From: Acididesulfobacillus acetoxydans
GTDB taxonomy: Bacteria > Bacillota > Desulfitobacteriia > Desulfitobacteriales > Desulfitobacteriaceae
NCBI RefSeq assembly: GCF_902729405.1
Contig: NZ_LR746496.1
Location: 3,720,001 to 3,784,000 of the forward strand
Direction: 5' to 3'
DNA: 64,000 nucleotides
Shown here: piece by piece, positions 2,650-10,929 of the stretch
How the letters are laid out: each line of letters begins with the position of its first letter
Position numbering within the stretch: the stretch's first letter is position 1
Translations under genes and position numbers: made by a program
The notes under the pieces: generated by a model
What the model was told of the DNA's origin: nothing
The model's input: the letters and a program-made list of their open reading frames with translations, nothing else
The model's database searches: none

Positions 2650-4101
2650 ATGAATGTGAATCAAAAGAAACTCGGTTTCTGGTTACTGGCGGCGCTGGTT
2701 GCCGGGAATATGGTGGGTTCCGCAATCTTCATGCTTCCCCAGTCGCTTGCCAACGTGGGCTCCCCGGCCGGAATCCTGCTTGCCTGGCTGTTCACCGGCC
2801 TCGGCGTTCTCATGATTGCCCACGTCTATGGTCAGCTGTCCGATTTCAAACCGGCGCTGCTCGGTGGCCCGCCCAGTTATACACGGGAGCTGTTTAACGG
2901 CAAGAGCAAACTGGGACAAATCATGGGGTTCGAAATCGCATGGGGGTACTGGACCTCAAACTCTCCGGGGAACGCAGCCATTCTCATAACACTCGTCGGC
3001 TATCTAACGTACTTCCTGCCGGTTCTGCAAAGCAAAGCCATCCTTTTCTCCGTTGGCGGTTTTCATGTACAGACCGGGAATTTCTTTTCGTTTGCCATTG
3101 CTTCCCTCGTTCTCTGGTTTGTTCACTACCTGATGCTCAAAGGGACTTATGCGGCCGGCAAAATAAATTTTGTTGCCACCGTGGCCAAAATTCTTGGCTT
3201 TCTCTTCTTCATCGTCGTCGCTCTCTCTATTTTTGACACAACCTATCTCCACCCTTTCATAGCCGCCAAGACGTTGGCGTCCGGCAAGACGATTGGGCTC
3301 TTTCAGCAAATGAACCGGGGTGCGATTCTGACGCTCTGGGCTTTCGTCGGTATCGAGTCTGCCGCCTGGCTTTCCGGCCGGGCGAAAAGACAACGGGACG
3401 TTAAGTCAGCAACGCTGACCGGGTTGCTCATCGCGTTGATCATCTATCTTCTGATTACTTTCTTGGCCATGGGCACCCTGCCTGCGAAGGAACTGATGGT
3501 CGCAGACAAGCCTTTAGTTGACGTCTTGACAAAAATCATCGGTCCGAAGGGCTCGTTTGTCATGGCAACCCTCGGAGTCCTCTCCATGCTCGGCGCTACG
3601 GTTGGCTGGATTTTACTGAGTGTAGAAGTGCCGTACCAATCTGCACGTCTTAACCTCTTTCCTCACTGGTTTGTAAAGGAAAACAAAAACGGCGCCCCCT
3701 ACCGGGCTGCCTGGATCACTAATGGGCTTACGCAAGTGTTTCTGCTCTCCATGATCTCGAACACGATTGCTAACGCCTTTAACGAAATGGTCATCATCGC
3801 CACTCTGGCCAATCTGGTCCCGTATCTTTTCTCCGGCCTCTATTCTCTGAACGTCGTCGGCAAGGGCGAAAACTACGAAACCGTCTCCCTCAGGAAACGT
3901 TTGCTTGATGGAACCATGGCCCTTGGCGCGACGCTCTACTCCTTCTGGGTCTTAAAATCAGGCTTGAGTGATCTCAAAACCTTGGCTCTCGGCATGCTTC
4001 TCTTCGTGTCCGGTTTGGTCCTCCTTCCGCTGCTTCCGAAGCATGACGCTCCGGAAGAACAGGCCCATTTGGAAACGCCGGTAGAGTCACTTCCTGATTG
4101 A
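2650..4101 (+). CDS. APC-superfamily amino-acid permease/antiporter (ArcD-like)
   Basis: A 483-residue membrane protein with about 12 hydrophobic segments. Helix 1 carries AGNMVGSAIFMLP, the APC-superfamily substrate-backbone motif (G-S-A/G-I-F), and the GGPPSYTRELF loop after helix 2 is typical of the basic amino-acid/polyamine antiporter (arginine-ornithine) branch. It probably imports an amino acid or exchanges it for its product. AAGGAG is only two bases from the first ATG and eight bases from the GTG two codons later, so translation may begin at 2656. It is monocistronic, with its own promoter and a strong terminator. The substrate is inferred from the family only. Confidence 0.88.
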   Translation: MNVNQKKLGFWLLAALVAGNMVGSAIFMLPQSLANVGSPAGILLAWLFTGLGVLMIAHVYGQLSDFKPALLGGPPSYTRELFNGKSKLGQIMGFEIAWGYWTSNSPGNAAILITLVGYLTYFLPVLQSKAILFSVGGFHVQTGNFFSFAIASLVLWFVHYLMLKGTYAAGKINFVATVAKILGFLFFIVVALSIFDTTYLHPFIAAKTLASGKTIGLFQQMNRGAILTLWAFVGIESAAWLSGRAKRQRDVKSATLTGLLIALIIYLLITFLAMGTLPAKELMVADKPLVDVLTKIIGPKGSFVMATLGVLSMLGATVGWILLSVEVPYQSARLNLFPHWFVKENKNGAPYRAAWITNGLTQVFLLSMISNTIANAFNEMVIIATLANLVPYLFSGLYSLNVVGKGENYETVSLRKRLLDGTMALGATLYSFWVLKSGLSDLKTLALGMLLFVSGLVLLPLLPKHDAPEEQAHLETPVESLPD

Positions 4102-4110
4102 ATTTCAAAA

Positions 4111-4180
4111 CCCTGCCGCAGCAATCCACCGGCAGGGACAAGTTCGCTGCATCCTCGCATCGCAAGGGTGCAGCTTTTTT
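4111..4180 (+). terminator. Terminator of the permease gene
   Basis: A first hairpin (CCCTGCCG/CGGCAGGG, 4111-4137) is followed by a second, GCTGCATCCT...AGGGTGCAGC (4146-4174), ending in six T. Confidence 0.8.
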
Positions 4181-4199
4181 AATTACCTCCACTAACCCC

Positions 4200-4478
4200 T
4201 CCCATATGTCCAGCAGGGGTGCAACCAGCATGGGAAATATGGGGATACCGATTTTACAACTGACGGCGGGCGAACCGATAGAAAGCATGGTGGAGAAATT
4301 GAATTCCCGGCAACCCGAATTGCTCCTTGGCTATGCCTCTATAATACGTATTCTGGCTTATGAGCAGCTCGCAGGCCATCTCCAAATAGCGCCAAGGACC
4401 GTCATCAGCCGCTCGGAGGTCTTAACCCCGGAAACACGGCGCCTGGTCAAATCCCACTTGCCCCATACTTCGGCCTAG
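4200..4478 (+). pseudogene. Fragment of a phenylacetate-CoA-ligase-family gene (middle part)
   Basis: About 90 residues in frame containing GNMGIPILQLTAGEPIESMV, ELLLGYASII and ISRSEVLTPETRR. This is the central part of the adenylate-forming PaaK/coenzyme-F390-synthetase-like family. The N-terminal substrate region and the C-terminal domain are missing, and the frame ends shortly after the TPETRR motif. No credible start or ribosome-binding site exists for this part. A separate C-terminal fragment of the same family lies on the opposite strand near 5.8 kb, so they are not halves of one simply interrupted gene. Confidence 0.65.
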
Positions 4479-4720: not shown

Positions 4721-4820
4721 CGCGAAGTATTCGGTAAAGCATATGAAGGAAGGAGCGCCGGATAAACGCCTTCGCGGAGCTCACGGAACGTGCGAGTTTG
4801 CTCGCAATAGGAGGTTCTAT

Positions 4821-5669
4821 ATGAAATTTTCCCGCATTCTGCCAACCGGCATTGCGGCCGCAGTTCTTCTCTGCGCGACCGCCTGTGGTTCGGGAACACC
4901 AACCGCCACGCCAAATACAAACCGCTCAACATCCGCTGCCAGCGGAATCCATCAAAAAAACACGCCCCCCTCCCATACCGGTGCCGGCAGCCATGGTTTA
5001 CCAACAGGCGAAACGTTAACCGGGGGCAACCCGGTGGCACCCGCGCCGGTTCCCGCCCTTCAGCATAAACAATATCAGACGCCGATACCCGTGTCCGTTC
5101 TTCACGTCACCTACGCTTATCCTGTTCCCAAAGTTCCTTCGTTACCCTCTGAAGTGAGGATGTCACTCCCGACAGATCTCGCCTCAAAATTAACTGCCTA
5201 CTACTTTCCTCTGGGCAGTCGTTCTTTTTACATCGTGGCCCCGAATGGTATGAAAGGAAAAGCAGATGTCGGTCAGGACGGGTCCTATAAACTGGCTTTG
5301 AAAAATCCGGAGGGCACTGAGCTCTATCTGTCCTCCTCGGGAGCATGCCAGGGGTGTGCGGCGGATGCGGCCGCAATGTATTTCACATCGGCTCGAAAGG
5401 ATGCCGTAGACTATGGCGGTCCCTCCGGTCCGTATTTTCAAGACTTACCGGTAAAGATGGTAACGGTCAACTCGCAACTCATCACTTTGGCCTATGCGGA
5501 ACAAAACAAGAAACAGCTTGCCGGCTTTGCCTATTATTTGTCGATTACGACTACCCATGGACAAGGCACATTTTTGAGTGAAAAATATGTTGCGTCCGGC
5601 CAAGACGTACAAAATCTGGCACCGTGGATTTTCCAAAACACACTTTTACAACAAAAAATACCTTTTTAG
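4821..5669 (+). CDS. Uncharacterised secreted lipoprotein
   Basis: A 282-residue protein with a lipoprotein signal peptide: MKFSRILPTG, a hydrophobic core, then the lipobox ATAC-GS with the modified cysteine near residue 22. A Ser/Thr/Pro/Gly-rich linker follows (about 25-75) and then a globular domain (about 90-282) with a CQGC pair near residue 180. I do not recognise the domain and assign no function; it should be anchored to the outer face of the membrane. The ATG follows TAGGAGG; the frame extends 26 codons upstream without a signal peptide, so the later start is preferred. A partly deleted second copy lies at 15652-15790. Confidence 0.75.
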   Translation: MKFSRILPTGIAAAVLLCATACGSGTPTATPNTNRSTSAASGIHQKNTPPSHTGAGSHGLPTGETLTGGNPVAPAPVPALQHKQYQTPIPVSVLHVTYAYPVPKVPSLPSEVRMSLPTDLASKLTAYYFPLGSRSFYIVAPNGMKGKADVGQDGSYKLALKNPEGTELYLSSSGACQGCAADAAAMYFTSARKDAVDYGGPSGPYFQDLPVKMVTVNSQLITLAYAEQNKKQLAGFAYYLSITTTHGQGTFLSEKYVASGQDVQNLAPWIFQNTLLQQKIPF

Positions 5670-5728
5670 CCCGCCGTTGCTCATCAAGAACATACACCCG
5701 GGATTGCCGCATATCATTGTCGGTCAGC

Positions 5729-5860
5729 TTAATTTCCAATCACCCTTTTGGCTTTCCCTTCGCTGCGAGGGATACTCTTGGGTTCGACCAAACAGATCCG
5801 GACCGATATGCCAATGATCTTTTCAATCCGTTGCTGCACGTGCGCCTGTAAGTTTCTCAG
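5729..5860 (-). pseudogene. C-terminal fragment of a second phenylacetate-CoA ligase gene
   Basis: On the minus strand the frame reads VQQRIEKIIGISVRI, then LVEPKSIPRSEGKAKRV and a stop. It matches the C terminus of the intact ligase at 1064-2323 almost residue for residue, and the DNA similarity is obvious. A TGA at 5861-5863 closes the frame on its 5' side. It is a clear relic of a paralogue on the strand opposite the middle fragment at 4200-4478. Confidence 0.85.
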
Positions 5861-5902
5861 TCACTCAGCAACAATGTCACTTCGGATATGGGGCTCGAGC
5901 TT

Positions 5903-6304
5903 CTAGATGTGGCAGATGTTGTCCGGCAGTATCCGGCCGTGCTTGATTACACTAATTTCATCCATAATCAATGTTTTAGAAACGTTCATCGCGTCAATAA
6001 TCTTTTGAAAGCGCTTGTATTGAGGTGCTTCCATCTCATGTTTCCTTTGACCCGTTTCACACTTTCTTATCACAGATACTATCGGTTTAAGAGCATCGGT
6101 CAATTCTTCTTTCGAATAGCGCTCAATCTCACGGTCCTCTGTAATTAGTGCCCTTGAGATATACATCGCCTTGATTCTGTTCTTAAGCAGAGTATATTGA
6201 GAAGTTCCTTCCGCAAATTTAGGCTGTATCTTTTCACATTTACTAATGGTTGACGATACAACTTGTAGGGCGTCTGATAATTCATCTCCTGAATATTTTC
6301 CCAT
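5903..6304 (-). CDS. Hypothetical protein made of two copies of a ~60-residue unit
   Basis: 133 residues with GAGGTG eight bases before the ATG. Residues about 3-60 and 62-120 are repeats of each other: YSGDELSDAL...ISKCEKIQPKF...YTLLKNRIKAMYISRALI and YSKEELTDAL...IRKCETGQRKH...YKRFQKIIDAMNVSKTLI. Each unit is predicted all-helical with a central Cys and a basic patch. No signal peptide or membrane segment. I do not recognise a function. It sits alone between pseudogene fragments, but its intact repeat structure and ribosome-binding site argue that it is a real gene. Confidence 0.65.
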   Translation of the reverse strand: MGKYSGDELSDALQVVSSTISKCEKIQPKFAEGTSQYTLLKNRIKAMYISRALITEDREIERYSKEELTDALKPIVSVIRKCETGQRKHEMEAPQYKRFQKIIDAMNVSKTLIMDEISVIKHGRILPDNICHI

Positions 6305-6424
6305 ATCATTTCACCTCATGCTTGTCGATTGTCTCATTTGCAGACTTTCGTTTCAATTACCAATGAAGTCATTTTGCTTTTTACTCAAGCTGACTTCAGA
6401 TTTCTTGAACTGAATTAAGCATAT

Positions 6425-6611
6425 TTATTTGCCGGGCAGTTGGATGCCGCGCCAGTCGCTTACATCGCATTGACCATATTCATTGTCACCTACAGCGACC
6501 ACCGTGCCGTCAGATTTAAGGCCGATGGTATGAGCGCACCCCGCCGCAACCGCCACAATATCGCGCCAGCCACTTACATTGCATTGAACCACCTCTTTGG
6601 TTACCCAATTT
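6425..6611 (-). pseudogene. RCC1/alpha-tubulin-suppressor-like repeat protein, C-terminal relic
   Basis: The minus-strand frame reads VSGWRDIVAVAAGCAHTIGL, then KSDGTVVAVGDNEYGQCDVS, DWRGIQLPGK and a stop. This is one complete and one partial RCC1-type beta-propeller blade. An in-frame TAA lies just upstream near 6616 and no ribosome-binding site is seen, so only the tail of a much longer gene remains. Confidence 0.7.
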
Positions 6612-6774
6612 TATTTCCCATTGTAGCATAGAGCTGAAACCTTGGTGCGACAGTGGAGGGTTTAAATATATTATTGCCTATTTGCATGAGGCGGAAGTCT
6701 GCGAACGGTTATGTTAAATTGAGAAAAAGACTCAATCCTGCGTTTTCCCGCTTCCCATCTTCCAAACTTTCTCG

Positions 6775-6821
6775 TTGACAACAAATCGTCTTGAGCTATA
6801 ATGTAAGTAAATAGTTACTTA
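6775..6821 (+). promoter_or_regulatory. Promoter and TetR-type operator
   Basis: TTGACA (6775-6780), a 16-base spacer and TATAAT (6797-6802) form a near-consensus promoter. Immediately downstream lies TAAGTAA-ATAG-TTACTTA (6804-6821), a perfect seven-base inverted repeat over the likely transcription start, ideally placed for autorepression by the TetR protein encoded 44 bases later. Confidence 0.8.
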
Positions 6822-6864
6822 AAACCAGGCTTTAAATCTTTGGGGAGAGCAAAGGAAAGAGACC

Positions 6865-7563
6865 ATGGATATGGACGTAGGATCTTCTAAAAAAAGGGTC
6901 CGAGATTCGCAAAAGTCACGGGCGGCCATATTGGACGCGGCTGAGGAGGTTTTTGCCCAAAACGGGTTTGCCGGCGCGCGAATTGAGACCATTGCTAAAG
7001 CCTCGGGCTATAATACCGGCCTGATCTTCAGGTACTTTGGCGACAAACTCGGCCTCTACAGCGAAGTACTGAAGCGCTCCGACTCAGAAGTGAGCGAGCT
7101 CATGGTCAATGCGTTCACACCCTTGTTTACGGATGAAGCCGCGGCTTCCGATGCCGATCATTTTAGGGCCTTTCTCAAAGGGATGATTGTGACCCTTTTT
7201 GACTACTTGCTCGACCATCCCTCCCTGGTGCGCATTTTGACCTGGGAAATGGCCGGGGGCTGGGAAATGCTCGCAAAAACGGCCTCCCAATTCCCGACCG
7301 AAAACAGTGAGCGATTCGTGGCATTCTTTCACAAGGCATGGACAACCGGTTTTCTTCGTTCTAACTTTGCTTTCAAGATTCAATTCTCCTTAGTTATGCA
7401 GATATGCCACGTCTACCTCGCCTACCTTCCCTTGTATCAGATGTTGCTCCCGGGTGAGGATCCTGCCGCAACTGGATCCATGGCGCAAGCACGGGAGCAT
7501 CTTGTCAATTTCATCGTGGCCGGGATGATGACAGAGCCGGAAATAGCGGAAGAAACAACTTAA
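6865..7563 (+). CDS. TetR/AcrR-family transcriptional regulator
   Basis: 232 residues. Residues about 17-65 are the TetR helix-turn-helix: SRAAILDAAEEVFAQNGFAG, then IETIAKASGYNTGLIFRYFG; the remainder is a helical ligand-binding and dimerisation region with no recognisable ligand signature. The ATG at 6865 lies behind a purine-rich site. The promoter/operator directly upstream predicts autoregulation. The next genes on the same strand, a short reading frame and the UbiB-VOC locus, probably form its transcriptional target, since no other promoter is evident before them. Confidence 0.9.
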   Translation: MDMDVGSSKKRVRDSQKSRAAILDAAEEVFAQNGFAGARIETIAKASGYNTGLIFRYFGDKLGLYSEVLKRSDSEVSELMVNAFTPLFTDEAAASDADHFRAFLKGMIVTLFDYLLDHPSLVRILTWEMAGGWEMLAKTASQFPTENSERFVAFFHKAWTTGFLRSNFAFKIQFSLVMQICHVYLAYLPLYQMLLPGEDPAATGSMAQAREHLVNFIVAGMMTEPEIAEETT

Positions 7564-7586
7564 GATAACTTTCAAGGAGGGATATT

Positions 7587-7670
7587 ATGGATACCTCAAC
7601 AATTAGAAATCTATTGTCAAGGTGTGAGAATTTCCGAGAACGGGAACACTGGACTCGTCAGGATCCATGA
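7587..7670 (+). CDS. Possible 27-residue peptide between the TetR gene and the UbiB gene
   Basis: A perfect AAGGAGG lies seven bases before an ATG that opens a 27-codon frame (MDTSTIRNLLSRCENFRERE...). It may be the surviving start of a longer decayed gene or a short leader peptide. Composition is hydrophilic; no function is assigned. Confidence 0.35.
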   Translation: MDTSTIRNLLSRCENFREREHWTRQDP

Positions 7671-7739
7671 GAAACAATCCGGGATTGCTGTGCCGCCGGA
7701 GGTGGAGTGAACCCCATAGCGTTTACAACGGAGGTTAGG

Positions 7740-8744
7740 GTGGCAAAACACAAATTTCTACCGATTCGAACAATTGCCCGCGTAGTCACCGTCACTGCTG
7801 TATGTGCGTGGTACTTTGCGCCACTGGTAATTATCGGAAACAGAAAACGAAATACTGTTAAAATCGCAAATGCTGCAAACCGCACTTTCCACGTCCTCGG
7901 TTCCACTTTTCTTAAATTCGGTCAGTTGATTGCATCGTCCCCTGGCCTGGTCGGTGTAGAAGTTGCAGACATCTTCCGTAGTTGCCTGGACACAGGCCCG
8001 CGCCTCAAAGAAAAATCGCTGCTTTATGCGATAGAACGAGCCGCTGGCTGTCCCATCGGAGAGGCCTACAAAGACATCGATATGACACCCATAGGATCCG
8101 CTTCCATCGCCGTGGTACATTCTGCCACAACCGTCGCGGGCGACAGAGTCGCAATTAAAGTGCGAAGACCAGGCATAAAGCGACGTGTAGCGGACGACAT
8201 ACTCATCCTAAAAGGGTTGATGCGAATCGCTATGCTCTTCGGGAAGTCATCGGATGTAGTTGAGTTGCTCGATCTGATTGATGATTTTGAACGGAATATC
8301 CGAGACGAATTGGATCTGAGACTGGAACGAGAAGCCATGGAACGGATTGGCGGTCAGCTGGCAACTCACGGATTCCGTCAGATCGCAGTTCCAAAGACGT
8401 TTCCGATACTTTCCGATGATACGGTATTGGTAATGGAGATGTTCGATGGAGTTGCTATCGATAATCTACCAGCCATTAAGGCACTGGGCGTCGGGGCACG
8501 GCCGCTGGTCGACGACATAATTCGCGCATGGTTAGTTACGAGCATTGTGGACGGTGAATTTCATGGTGACTGCCATGCCGGTAATGTCCTAATCTTACGC
8601 GACGGGCGCCTTGGTTTGATCGATTGGGGTATTGTCGGGAAACTGGATGAATCGACAAAAACCTTTCTGATTAGACTGCTTGAAGGCAGTGTCGGAGAAG
8701 AAAGCGCTTGGCGGGAAGTCGCTGATTTCTTTTATACACAATAG
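7740..8744 (+). CDS. UbiB/AarF/ABC1-family atypical kinase (frameshifted at its C-terminal part)
   Basis: About 334 residues. Visible UbiB-family motifs: KFGQLIASSPGLVG (KxGQ motif), IGSASIAVVHSA (Ala/Gly-rich nucleotide loop), VAIKVRRPG (lysine), HGDCHAGNVL (catalytic-loop equivalent) and LIDWGIVG (DFG equivalent). The N terminus has a hydrophobic segment. UbiB proteins act in quinone or isoprenoid lipid metabolism. GTG 7740 follows ACGGAGG; GTG 7707 is an alternative. The frame stops at FFYTQ, but the UbiB C-terminal helix (KQLVFFERYARL) continues in the next frame at 8680-10053. Deleting one T from the TTTT run at 8730-8733 joins them, so this is either a frameshift mutation or a sequencing error in a UbiB-VOC fusion. 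Confidence 0.8.
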   Translation: MAKHKFLPIRTIARVVTVTAVCAWYFAPLVIIGNRKRNTVKIANAANRTFHVLGSTFLKFGQLIASSPGLVGVEVADIFRSCLDTGPRLKEKSLLYAIERAAGCPIGEAYKDIDMTPIGSASIAVVHSATTVAGDRVAIKVRRPGIKRRVADDILILKGLMRIAMLFGKSSDVVELLDLIDDFERNIRDELDLRLEREAMERIGGQLATHGFRQIAVPKTFPILSDDTVLVMEMFDGVAIDNLPAIKALGVGARPLVDDIIRAWLVTSIVDGEFHGDCHAGNVLILRDGRLGLIDWGIVGKLDESTKTFLIRLLEGSVGEESAWREVADFFYTQ

Positions 8745-10053
8745 AGAAGAGCTACTCAACGTTTTCGGGACCACAATAGAGGAGTCCTCTTCCAAAATAC
8801 AGGACCTGTTAGGTCCTCTCCTTACAGCACCGTTTGGCCAAAATAGCCTGGCAACTTTTCTCGAACAAGCTGGTCTACAAAATGCTGATGCAACTTCAAC
8901 CAGCAGTATGGACAAAGCGGAGGCAAAGCCGGGAGCGAGTGCTTCCTTTGATCAAGGTTTCTTTCTCTGGATAAAGCAATTGGTCTTTTTCGAGAGATAT
9001 GCGCGTTTACACGAACGCTATCGATCGATCTCGAACTATGCTGCTGAAGTGTTGCCGCTGATACCAGCCTCCAGGATGTATGGAGCAGATATCGTTTCTG
9101 CGGAGTCTGTCGTCATTGATGGTCTGCATCATGTTGGTCATCTCGTGCATGATCTTGAGAGTGGCCTTGCCCTCTACAAAAGACTCGGCTTTACGATGAC
9201 GACACCCAGTGTGCCTGCGGTGCCTCTCCAGAAAGCAGCCCCTTTATCACCATTCGGAGCCGCAAATAGCCATGCTGACTTTGAAGAACACAATTTTGTG
9301 GAACTGGCCACTGTTCTCACAGGCGCAGGAAAAGTTCCTGTGGGAACCAGGCTTGTACCTCTTCAGGTACCGGAGAAAGTAATGCCTCGATTCCTCGAAA
9401 TCATCAATCGAACCCTTACAAAACTTAACGCATGCCTTAATCGCTTTGAAGGGTTACACATTCTCGTCTTCCGGGCAACTGACGTGTATGCCCAGGCCAT
9501 GAGACTCAGCCTAGAGGGCATCGGACATTCCGGTGTGGCATCTACACAACGACAATCTAACGCAGAGAACAAATCATCGGAAGGTGTACTGCGAGTGCTC
9601 GAAATAGACGATCCAAGCAACCCGGTACCGGAAGGGCGTCTCGCGATTGCAGGAACGCCAACAATATCTAGTACTCATCCAAATGGGGCGCTCGGACTTA
9701 TCGAATCGATCCTCTATGTGGCTGAGGCCGATCTGCCCGAATTCTTGCTCCGCTATGAAAAGTATTTGAATCGGCCTGCACGGACTGAAGCAAATGTGAA
9801 CGTATTCGAGTTAGGAGGCTCACGGATCATTATTGCTACTGATTCTGTCCTCGAAACTATTCTACCCGGCGAACACGCTCCAGAGTTGCCGGCCTTTGTT
9901 GCTTTCACTATCAGGGTCCAAAATATAGAACAAACACGTAAATTGCTGCTCAGTCATGGATTCACGCCACGAATATCAAGCCTAGGCGGTCTTTTCGTGC
10001 CGGCTGCTGAAGCTCTTGGTACTGCCATCCTATTCCGGCAAGTTGAAAATTGA
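8680..10053 (+). CDS. UbiB C-terminal segment fused to a glyoxalase/VOC-type domain (second frame of the split gene)
   Basis: Residues about 20-130 carry the tail expected of UbiB kinases, including WIKQLVFFERYARLHERYRS. From about residue 145 a vicinal-oxygen-chelate region begins (IDGLHHVGHLVHDLESGLAL, LYKRLGF), with more VOC-like units following (HPNGALGLIESILYV; VAFTIRVQNIEQTRKLLLSH). VOC proteins include glyoxalases, dioxygenases and resistance proteins; the reaction here is unknown. The start near 8680 lacks a convincing ribosome-binding site, so this part was presumably translated as a continuation of the upstream kinase. Function of the fusion is unassigned. Confidence 0.7.
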   Translation: MKAVSEKKALGGKSLISFIHNREELLNVFGTTIEESSSKIQDLLGPLLTAPFGQNSLATFLEQAGLQNADATSTSSMDKAEAKPGASASFDQGFFLWIKQLVFFERYARLHERYRSISNYAAEVLPLIPASRMYGADIVSAESVVIDGLHHVGHLVHDLESGLALYKRLGFTMTTPSVPAVPLQKAAPLSPFGAANSHADFEEHNFVELATVLTGAGKVPVGTRLVPLQVPEKVMPRFLEIINRTLTKLNACLNRFEGLHILVFRATDVYAQAMRLSLEGIGHSGVASTQRQSNAENKSSEGVLRVLEIDDPSNPVPEGRLAIAGTPTISSTHPNGALGLIESILYVAEADLPEFLLRYEKYLNRPARTEANVNVFELGGSRIIIATDSVLETILPGEHAPELPAFVAFTIRVQNIEQTRKLLLSHGFTPRISSLGGLFVPAAEALGTAILFRQVEN

Positions 10054-10929
10054 CATTCCTCTTTTCCCAAACCTAGTCTAACCCAGATATTCTTACCTAT
10101 TTCAGGCCGTTTTCCAAAGTCTTCAGTTACTTTCTCTACCTATCGAGTGAAGTGAAGAGCATCTTCCCCTGTTTCCTCCTTTAGGTCGCTTCCGAGCCGG
10201 TATCGCCTGATTACAGAGTCGGGGTGCGGCCATTGGGTACTCCAATTTCACGTCAAATCTACGTGAGTCGGAAGTCCGTGAACGGTTGAGCTTGAGAACG
10301 TTCGCTTGGACATTCGCAGCTCAGTCTGGTACTATAGTATCGAAGAGGGTGGTTATCATTGATGAGGCACATTGTTCTCTCGATGTTTATAAATCCGAAC
10401 ATTCAGAGGCATGTACAAAGAACAAAGTAACAAATCTTTCCTTGAGGAATGCTTGCCGTGCGGCCTCGCAACCCGCGTTGGCAATTTGTACACCGCCGGA
10501 CACACTCGTCCGGCGGTGCTGGAGAAAGGCTATTCCTTAGCAGCGAACTCTTCCGCCGCAATACACAGATAGTAACAAAGTCCGAGTTGGTGGTTTTCAA
10601 GCATATTTCTATGAAACTCGTCTTGCAGGAAAAACCTCGTCTGAGCGGCAAATGATTTTGCGGTAATGGCAGTCCCATAACTATTGAGAAACTTTAGATG
10701 CTCGTCGATTTGGGTACGCAGATTTTCATCTGTTGCTGCCCAGTGGTATTAAATAACGATTAATTCGTATTCGTATATAAGACGAATTAAGATTGATTAT
10801 TATAAATTCTGGGGGGGGGGATATCATGGACTATGCTGAAAAATATGCAAAATATCGTACTGAATATGCAAAAGAATTTTGCTATTTCTATAAGTACTTA
10901 GATAATAATTCTAACTCAGATAAGGACGA
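10054..10929. other. Gene-poor region with relics
   Basis: No complete gene is seen. A minus-strand frame (10530-10747) without a start encodes FAAQTRFFLQDEFHRNMLEN-like protein sequence and looks like a gene tail of unknown family. CACCGCCGGAC/GTCCGGCGGTG (about 10491-10518) is an 11-bp perfect stem without a T-run. Near 10757-10790 an AT-rich segment holds the inverted repeat TTAATTCGT/ACGAATTAA. A run of ten G (10811-10820) precedes an ATG at 10826 that opens a 39-codon frame of doubtful reality. The motif CGGAAGTCCGTGAACGGTT (10269-10287) echoes CGGAAGTCTGCGAACGGTT at 6691-6709. Confidence 0.4.

Follow-up and report, generated by a model that had tools for sequence, protein, structure and literature searches.

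A probable horizontally acquired UbiB kinase–VOC gene cut by a single frame slip in Acididesulfobacillus acetoxydans

In the 64,000-nucleotide stretch of the Acididesulfobacillus acetoxydans genome analyzed here (the window), we found a UbiB/ABC1-type kinase whose sequence runs on into a VOC protein once a single frame slip is bridged, as both the domains and the frames indicate and as a preliminary description of this DNA had proposed. The explanation that we favor, and regard as probable though well short of certain, is a single gene of horizontal origin that joined a complete UbiB/ABC1-type kinase end to end with a complete two-domain VOC protein, and that was then cut by one recent +1 slip in the kinase tail. 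No relative found carries the fusion; we infer both a former single fused protein and a present loss of the VOC product.

A frame change inside the kinase tail

The kinase and VOC proteins lie in two overlapping open reading frames, with the change of frame confined to a short stretch near the end of the first (Table 1). A run of four T is present at 8730-8733, and reading through both ORFs after the removal of one base gives an uninterrupted frame of 781 codons from GTG 7707, or 770 from GTG 7740, in agreement with the more than 760 codons described initially. Both starts are preceded by GGAGG, but GTG 7707 sits inside an inverted scrap of a ligase gene, so that GTG 7740 is the likelier start. 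The earlier proposal that the kinase frame ends at 8744 while the UbiB C-terminal tail continues in the next frame was borne out by the ORFs, tblastn and a codon model. Specifically, the model, trained on the 32 other long ORFs of the window (14,747 codons), favored the kinase frame through the 120-base segment that begins at 8641 and, from 8731 onward, the second frame. Own-frame scores were near zero (kinase 0.08, tail 0.00 and VOC 0.00, versus 0.23 for the TetR gene), and hence only the contrast between frames carries the switch point.

The stretch after the slip aligned to the tails of kinase relatives (tblastn E-values of 3.5e-11 for L060, 4.5e-10 for L058 and 3.9e-9 for L059), with KQLMYFERYG in the relatives corresponding to KQLVFFERYA in the window. 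All 13 close kinase relatives examined, from 13 genomes, encode kinase and tail in a single frame, which places the slip within the kinase. The relatives' proteins stop 34-72 residues past the start of the KQL motif (12 loci, comprising 11 of the 13 tail relatives and L096, the same gene as L059). In the window, some 30 to 40 residues connect the kinase end to the first VOC strand, and no stop occurs over some 440 codons after the slip, from the tail through the VOC region. An in-frame start is absent from the position where VOC relatives begin, although an ATG at 9076 lies in frame about 17-18 codons before a conserved HHVGH. Seven possible start codons lie in the second frame as far as 9120, none preceded by a Shine-Dalgarno sequence at a suitable distance, the only candidate being GAAGG, 2 bases before GTG 8689. 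Together, these features make the two halves continuous in frame after the slip.

Conservation differed on the two sides of the break. At columns at least 90% conserved, the window kinase deviated at 27 of 106 before the slip and at 12 of 28 after it, while its relatives deviated at 20 at most before the slip and at 0-8 after it in the 13 relatives. The post-slip tail therefore deviates more than that of any of the 13, which counts against a fully maintained tail, and its decay, or a looser constraint on it, may go back further than the word "recent" would suggest. A search of plasmids with the tail alone gave no match.

Table 1. Features of the kinase–VOC locus, in window coordinates
Feature	Position	Strand	Basis or detail
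Ligase remnant, residues 158-244 joined to 442-452	4182..4475	+	86% identity over 158-244
Sigma-70-type promoter match, TTGACA-16-TATAAT, 12/12	6775..6802	+	Before TetR gene; consensus scan
Palindrome TAAGTAA-N4-TTACTTA	6804..6821	.	Directly after promoter
TetR-family regulator, native here	6865..7563	+	Pfam TetR_N 1.5e-13; orthologue in same order in sister species
Ligase remnant, about first 25 residues	7587..7661	+	Directly after TetR; 52%, E 0.001; DNA synteny to 7649
Ligase remnant, inverted, residues about 106-128	7654..7721	-	79%, 9.7e-9
Probable foreign insert, block without counterpart in syntenic sister contig	7722..10171	+	Synteny resumes at 10172
Kinase ORF, first frame	7707-8744	+	345 aa; stop TAG 8742-8744
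UbiB/ABC1-type kinase, first frame	7740..8744	+	Likely start GTG 7740, GGAGG upstream; profiles, codon model, motifs
Kinase motifs	KFGQ 7914, ASIAVVH 8100, IKVRRPG 8154, HGDCHAGN 8562, IDWG 8619	+	Pattern search
Second ORF, next frame	8680-10053	+	457 aa
Reading-frame change (+1)	8717..8745	+	Sequence, tail alignment, codon model, relatives' frames
Kinase C-terminal tail in second frame, with KQLVFFERYARL	8746..9075	+	tblastn, relatives' alignment
Two-domain VOC protein, same frame as tail	9076..10053	+	Profile, conservation, predicted structure
VOC candidate ligands	H 9130, E 9301, H 9457, E 9601	+	Conservation

The two halves and their separate relatives

The kinase ORF matched Pfam ABC1 (E 1.6e-50; 171.9 bits, curated cut-off 22.9) and the NCBIfam UbiB model TIGR01982 (6.1e-63; 212.9 bits, under the equivalog cut-off of 487.55). 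The defining marks of the UbiB/ABC1 kinase family are KxGQ, the nucleotide-binding Lys, HGDxHxGN and the metal-binding Asp motif, and all were located by pattern. The window kinase shares with this atypical kinase family (AarF, COQ8/ADCK; PF03109) the ABC1 domain, KxGQ, an equivalent of the Ala-rich loop, HGDxHAGN and the metal-binding Asp (IDWG), and with the nearest subfamily a C-terminal KQLxxFERY tail; it differs in having that tail in another frame, followed by the VOC protein without a stop. The nearest solved chains by sequence were 5yjz (5.9e-19), then 7cy2 and COQ8A (4ped).

Among 61 surrounding genomes, the nearest non-self kinase matches were ordinary UbiB proteins at 26-31% identity, and the window kinase does not resemble L001, the canonical UbiB of this genome. 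Closer matches came from 296 genomes of the phylum of an Actinomycetota centre, where three (39-43%) extended into the tail. A further 247 genomes, drawn from the class to which the best Actinomycetota match belongs, gave 21 matches in 16 genomes, most reaching query residues 434-443 and none extending into the VOC region, which begins near residue 469. In the tree, the window kinase grouped with 14 rows from the Actinomycetota searches (100/97) and not with L001, on a long branch (1.35) whose placement was flagged as unsure; the nearest relative is only 46% identical. By these comparisons, the window kinase appears to belong to a subfamily found here in Actinomycetota. On plasmids, 254 records contained ABC1 kinases, with identities of about 30-33% for the best among the matches listed, and viral contigs searched with the kinase gave no match.

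The second ORF matched Pfam Glyoxalase_3 from its residue 149 (1.8e-11; 44.9 bits, cut-off 25.1) and none of the NCBIfam models. In the predicted structure of the VOC region (pLDDT 83.5, pTM 0.83), paired beta-alpha-beta-beta-beta modules gave a two-domain, HPPD-type match, and four units open with a strand and helix (starts at 14-23, 128-134, 205-215 and 273-281), in line with the "VOC-like repeats" reported beforehand. Residues H19, E76, H128 and E176 were invariant in all 22 VOC sequences, and in the model they sit on the strands that open and close each of the first two modules. A His-Glu-His-Glu set within one domain is the glyoxalase-I type of metal ligands, and the predicted arrangement would fit a glyoxalase-I-like, metal-dependent candidate site. 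The HPPD fold (1t47) likewise has two VOC domains per chain and superposed on the model with Z 21.3 and an rmsd of 2.9 over 257 residues, at 13% identity and with the rows below it tied. However, HPPD (4-hydroxyphenylpyruvate dioxygenase) binds iron in its C-terminal domain, whereas the invariant His and Glu of the window VOC lie in the N-terminal half, with none in residues 205-325 across the 22 sequences.

The closest known counterparts of this half are stand-alone Glyoxalase_3 (PF13468) proteins of about 300-350 aa from Actinomycetes, Shimazuella and Sorangium, which have 40-48% identity, the same length and the same invariant residues, but are separate genes, while the window VOC is joined to a kinase. 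Among 23 relatives, 85 columns reach 90% conservation or more; the window copy keeps 72 of them, and its 13 deviations, mostly mild, fall within the relatives' range of 0-19. The family was sparse: it was present in three of 100 related genomes (this one, the sister species G001, and G014), in three of 73 genomes of the order, and at 23 loci in a collection of 84,980 species that was screened with two short peptide patterns only. Relatives were recovered by a scan with a three-row VOC profile; a single-protein scan of genome contigs with the second ORF returned 54 stretches and no relative. Plasmids held one VOC match (Streptomyces anulatus), and neither viral contigs searched with the VOC profile nor phage records gave any. 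The relative in Actinocrispum wychmicini (L044, 6001-6787) matched in several frames and may be broken or misread. Additionally, a divergent ORF family lay directly before the VOC gene at eight of 24 loci (L023, L028-L030, L032, L034, L042 and L044; about 5270-6040, minus strand). TetR_N was confirmed in the one such ORF scanned, and a divergent TetR-like ORF in this position suggests an inducible function in those bacteria. A common TetR–VOC pair was considered and rejected for the window, whose TetR matches these ORFs only in the DNA-binding end (nine loci, E <0.01) and is tied by synteny to a ligase.

We also looked for a second kinase–VOC fusion. The fused-protein query, in four overlapping draws (398, 188, 299 and 247; 1,132 genomes), returned no second genome with both halves in one match, under E limits of 1e-46 to 1e-60 and with at most five candidates scored per genome, settings at which weaker fusions could be missed. 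The draws overlap in that G1121 is G014 again, and G254, G330 and G350 recur from the 296-genome search. None of 25 VOC loci (L007, L022-L045) had a kinase nearby at 1e-3, within flanks of mostly about 6 kb per side (extended to 8 kb for L022, shorter for L038 and L045, and initially 1.5 kb for L007, around which 20 kb was later covered as L083); at E up to 1, the only match was a weak one in L025 (0.025). An apparent kinase remnant before the Shimazuella VOC gene (a match to query residue 400, with five stops) was dismissed, as direct comparison gave the VOC protein only. Literature searches pairing UbiB with "vicinal oxygen chelate", or on ABC1 atypical kinases in actinobacteria, found nothing, and a kinase–VOC fusion was not named among the matches listed for UbiB/AarF/glyoxalase fusion and domain-architecture literature. 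Intact UbiB–VOC fusions, which the preliminary description had suggested seeking in relatives, were thus not found in the genomes searched. Relatives encoding two proteins with the same boundary, which it had named as counting against a fusion, are what we found on both sides. Since these relatives are separate proteins, the join does not represent a conserved fusion family, and from the sequences compared the fusion appears to be peculiar to this genome or to an unsampled donor.

Cause of the slip and standing of the fusion

The preliminary wording, "frameshifted or wrongly sequenced", spans the two likeliest causes of the break. A sequencing or assembly error, with an intact fused gene of about 770 codons in the living organism, would account for the intact kinase catalytic motifs and VOC ligand candidates and for a frame broken only once within 2.3 kb of sequence that is elsewhere open and conserved; we nevertheless consider it rather unlikely, given that the homopolymer run involved is only four bases long, that the assembly consists of a single contig with 97.7% completeness, and that matched genes around the locus show no frame splits. 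Specifically, the sister contig has 151 ORFs of 150 aa or longer, and 92 of them had a match at no less than 60% in 264 kb of this genome; 86 of these were intact in one frame over at least 85%, and none of the other six was frame-split here. In the reverse comparison, 82 of 87 were intact and two of the remaining five were frame-split in the sister species. The 86 intact matches cover 97,101 bases, and in nine of their alignments there are in-frame stops, 17 in total and often close to the start; some of these ORFs may be spurious. With none of 92 matched genes frame-split, frame errors are rare and a true mutation is favored over poor sequence. Programmed +1 frameshifting, yielding a truncated kinase and the full fusion from one message, is very improbable. 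A tRNA on UUU may re-pair one base on within UUUU, a mechanism that this site could accommodate, but no stop or obviously slow codon directly follows the slip (the stop comes four codons on), the RNA folds no better than shuffled sequences (z -1.21; 25 of 200 as good), and the 13 kinase relatives need no shift. The relatives' frames and the folding thus lend no support to the programmed slippage that had been put forward for checking.

It could also be that there never was a fusion, and that two neighboring genes lost the kinase stop and the VOC start through small deletions and the slip during decay of the locus, or that the VOC protein starts at ATG 9076. The relatives of each half are separate genes, the region is rearranged, and that ATG is in frame 18 codons before HHVGH. 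The uninterrupted passage from tail into VOC and the lack, upstream of the VOC region, of either a well-placed ribosome site or a start where relatives begin make this account improbable in our judgment.

Under the favored explanation of one fused and then broken gene, the intact protein would link a UbiB unit that uses ATP and is tied to membrane lipids or quinones with a VOC enzyme that depends on a metal; that the UbiB unit fed a membrane substrate to the VOC site is speculative. As the gene stands, translation would yield a kinase domain that retains the catalytic motifs yet lacks the tail, and hardly any VOC protein or none, because no well-placed ribosome site precedes the VOC region. 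ABC1 kinases with an N-terminal Usp or RIO1 domain are known (PMC1262709), a join other than that of kinase and VOC, and the word "glyoxalase" is absent from the main text of that paper. A fusion of a xylose-isomerase-like barrel with HPPD (5hmq) joins the VOC family to another domain, though not to an ABC1 kinase. The UbiB kinase–VOC join is therefore new relative to the searches made here, while each family was already known joined to other domains. To our knowledge, the substrates of UbiB proteins have yet to be settled, and a natural join to a VOC enzyme that depends on a metal would supply a partner reaction that could be tested for UbiB. As there is only one, broken copy, it is mainly a pointer toward the donor's intact gene.

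A probable foreign block in a rearranged locus

Third-position GC was.485 in the kinase,.456 in the tail and.429 in the VOC region, versus.627 in the 32 other long ORFs and.608 in TetR. This composition, the trees and the patchy occurrence of the relatives suggest a foreign origin for the kinase–VOC gene. The syntenic contig of the sister species (L079) corresponds to the window on both sides of the block, which stands between an inverted ligase scrap and the point where synteny resumes. In 7560-10300, the block was not bounded by repeats of at least 16 bases, direct or inverted, so that no mark of transposition was found, and no Rfam families were detected in 6500-10300.

The adjoining TetR regulator had initially been taken to govern the kinase–VOC gene, a role that the sister species contradicts. 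There, the TetR orthologue (86% over 224 residues) and an exact copy of the palindrome before it (L075) precede an intact adenylate-forming ligase of 452 residues (AMP-binding 6.7e-8; F390-synthetase-related 3e-38, below cut-off). In the window, this ligase is broken into at least three pieces, at 4098-4478 and 7587-7721, one of them inverted. Since TetR natively precedes a ligase whose debris flanks the block, it came to stand ahead of the kinase by accidental rearrangement, and only through that accident could the TetR promoter now read into the kinase–VOC block. The palindrome, the sole site with at most one mismatch in this genome, is a probable TetR operator by its sequence and placement; three further palindrome-like sites in the window were no more than chance (1.51 expected). 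Across 6300-10400, eight promoter-like sites compared with 4.4 (sd 1.9) expected from shuffles, and only one matched 12/12. The locus offers a clean example of a foreign gene in a shattered operon, beside a regulator that looks related to it and is not.

The sister species carries two VOC fragments at contig ends (L008 and L009), which keep only residues from about 251 on and lack the N-terminal part. One adjoins a TnpB-like ORF (Cas12f1-like_TNB, 2.1e-8), and the ORF at the other contig end had no Pfam match; we infer an insertion element at these ends. No kinase was found in 60 kb of that genome around the VOC fragments and the syntenic region. Over 203 codons, the window and sister VOC sequences differed with dN 0.197 and pS 0.733, dS being saturated (about 2.8), compared with dS between the two species of 0.38 for TetR and 0.47 for the ligase piece; the dN/dS of about 0.07, for the VOC region only, rests on that saturated dS and is indicative only. 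In the tree, the two VOC versions share a stem of 0.86, beyond which the window branch measures 0.11 and the sister-species branch 0.32. As the synonymous divergence of the VOC region is far above that of the two native genes, the two copies probably arrived separately, and by their sequences they probably came on two occasions from the same donor lineage, the protein having been under selection meanwhile. A bolder and doubtful extension is that an unsampled bacterial lineage has a working UbiB kinase–VOC fusion, in which ATP would drive the draw of a lipid- or quinone-like substrate to the VOC metal site, that the gene passed at least twice into this genus, and that the window holds the first copy seen to keep nearly all of it.

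Several smaller traces of rearrangement or shared DNA were noted nearby. A DUF4850 protein (window 4743-5669, plus strand; 2.9e-11) has its sister-contig match elsewhere in the gene order, which is another rearrangement. In L008, an ORF for a YafQ-type toxin (1194-1752; 4.5e-34), with a small ORF before it, occupies the place where the first half of the sister VOC gene would be. A 133-residue ORF of the window (5903-6304, minus strand), with no Pfam match and two halves similar by eye, has a homologue beside the other sister VOC fragment (L009 3-314, minus strand). Finally, L009 431-1426 (minus strand) encodes a MerR-type DNA-binding domain followed by RCC1 repeats in one ORF, and related DNA, without a long ORF, lies at 6444-6671 of the window.
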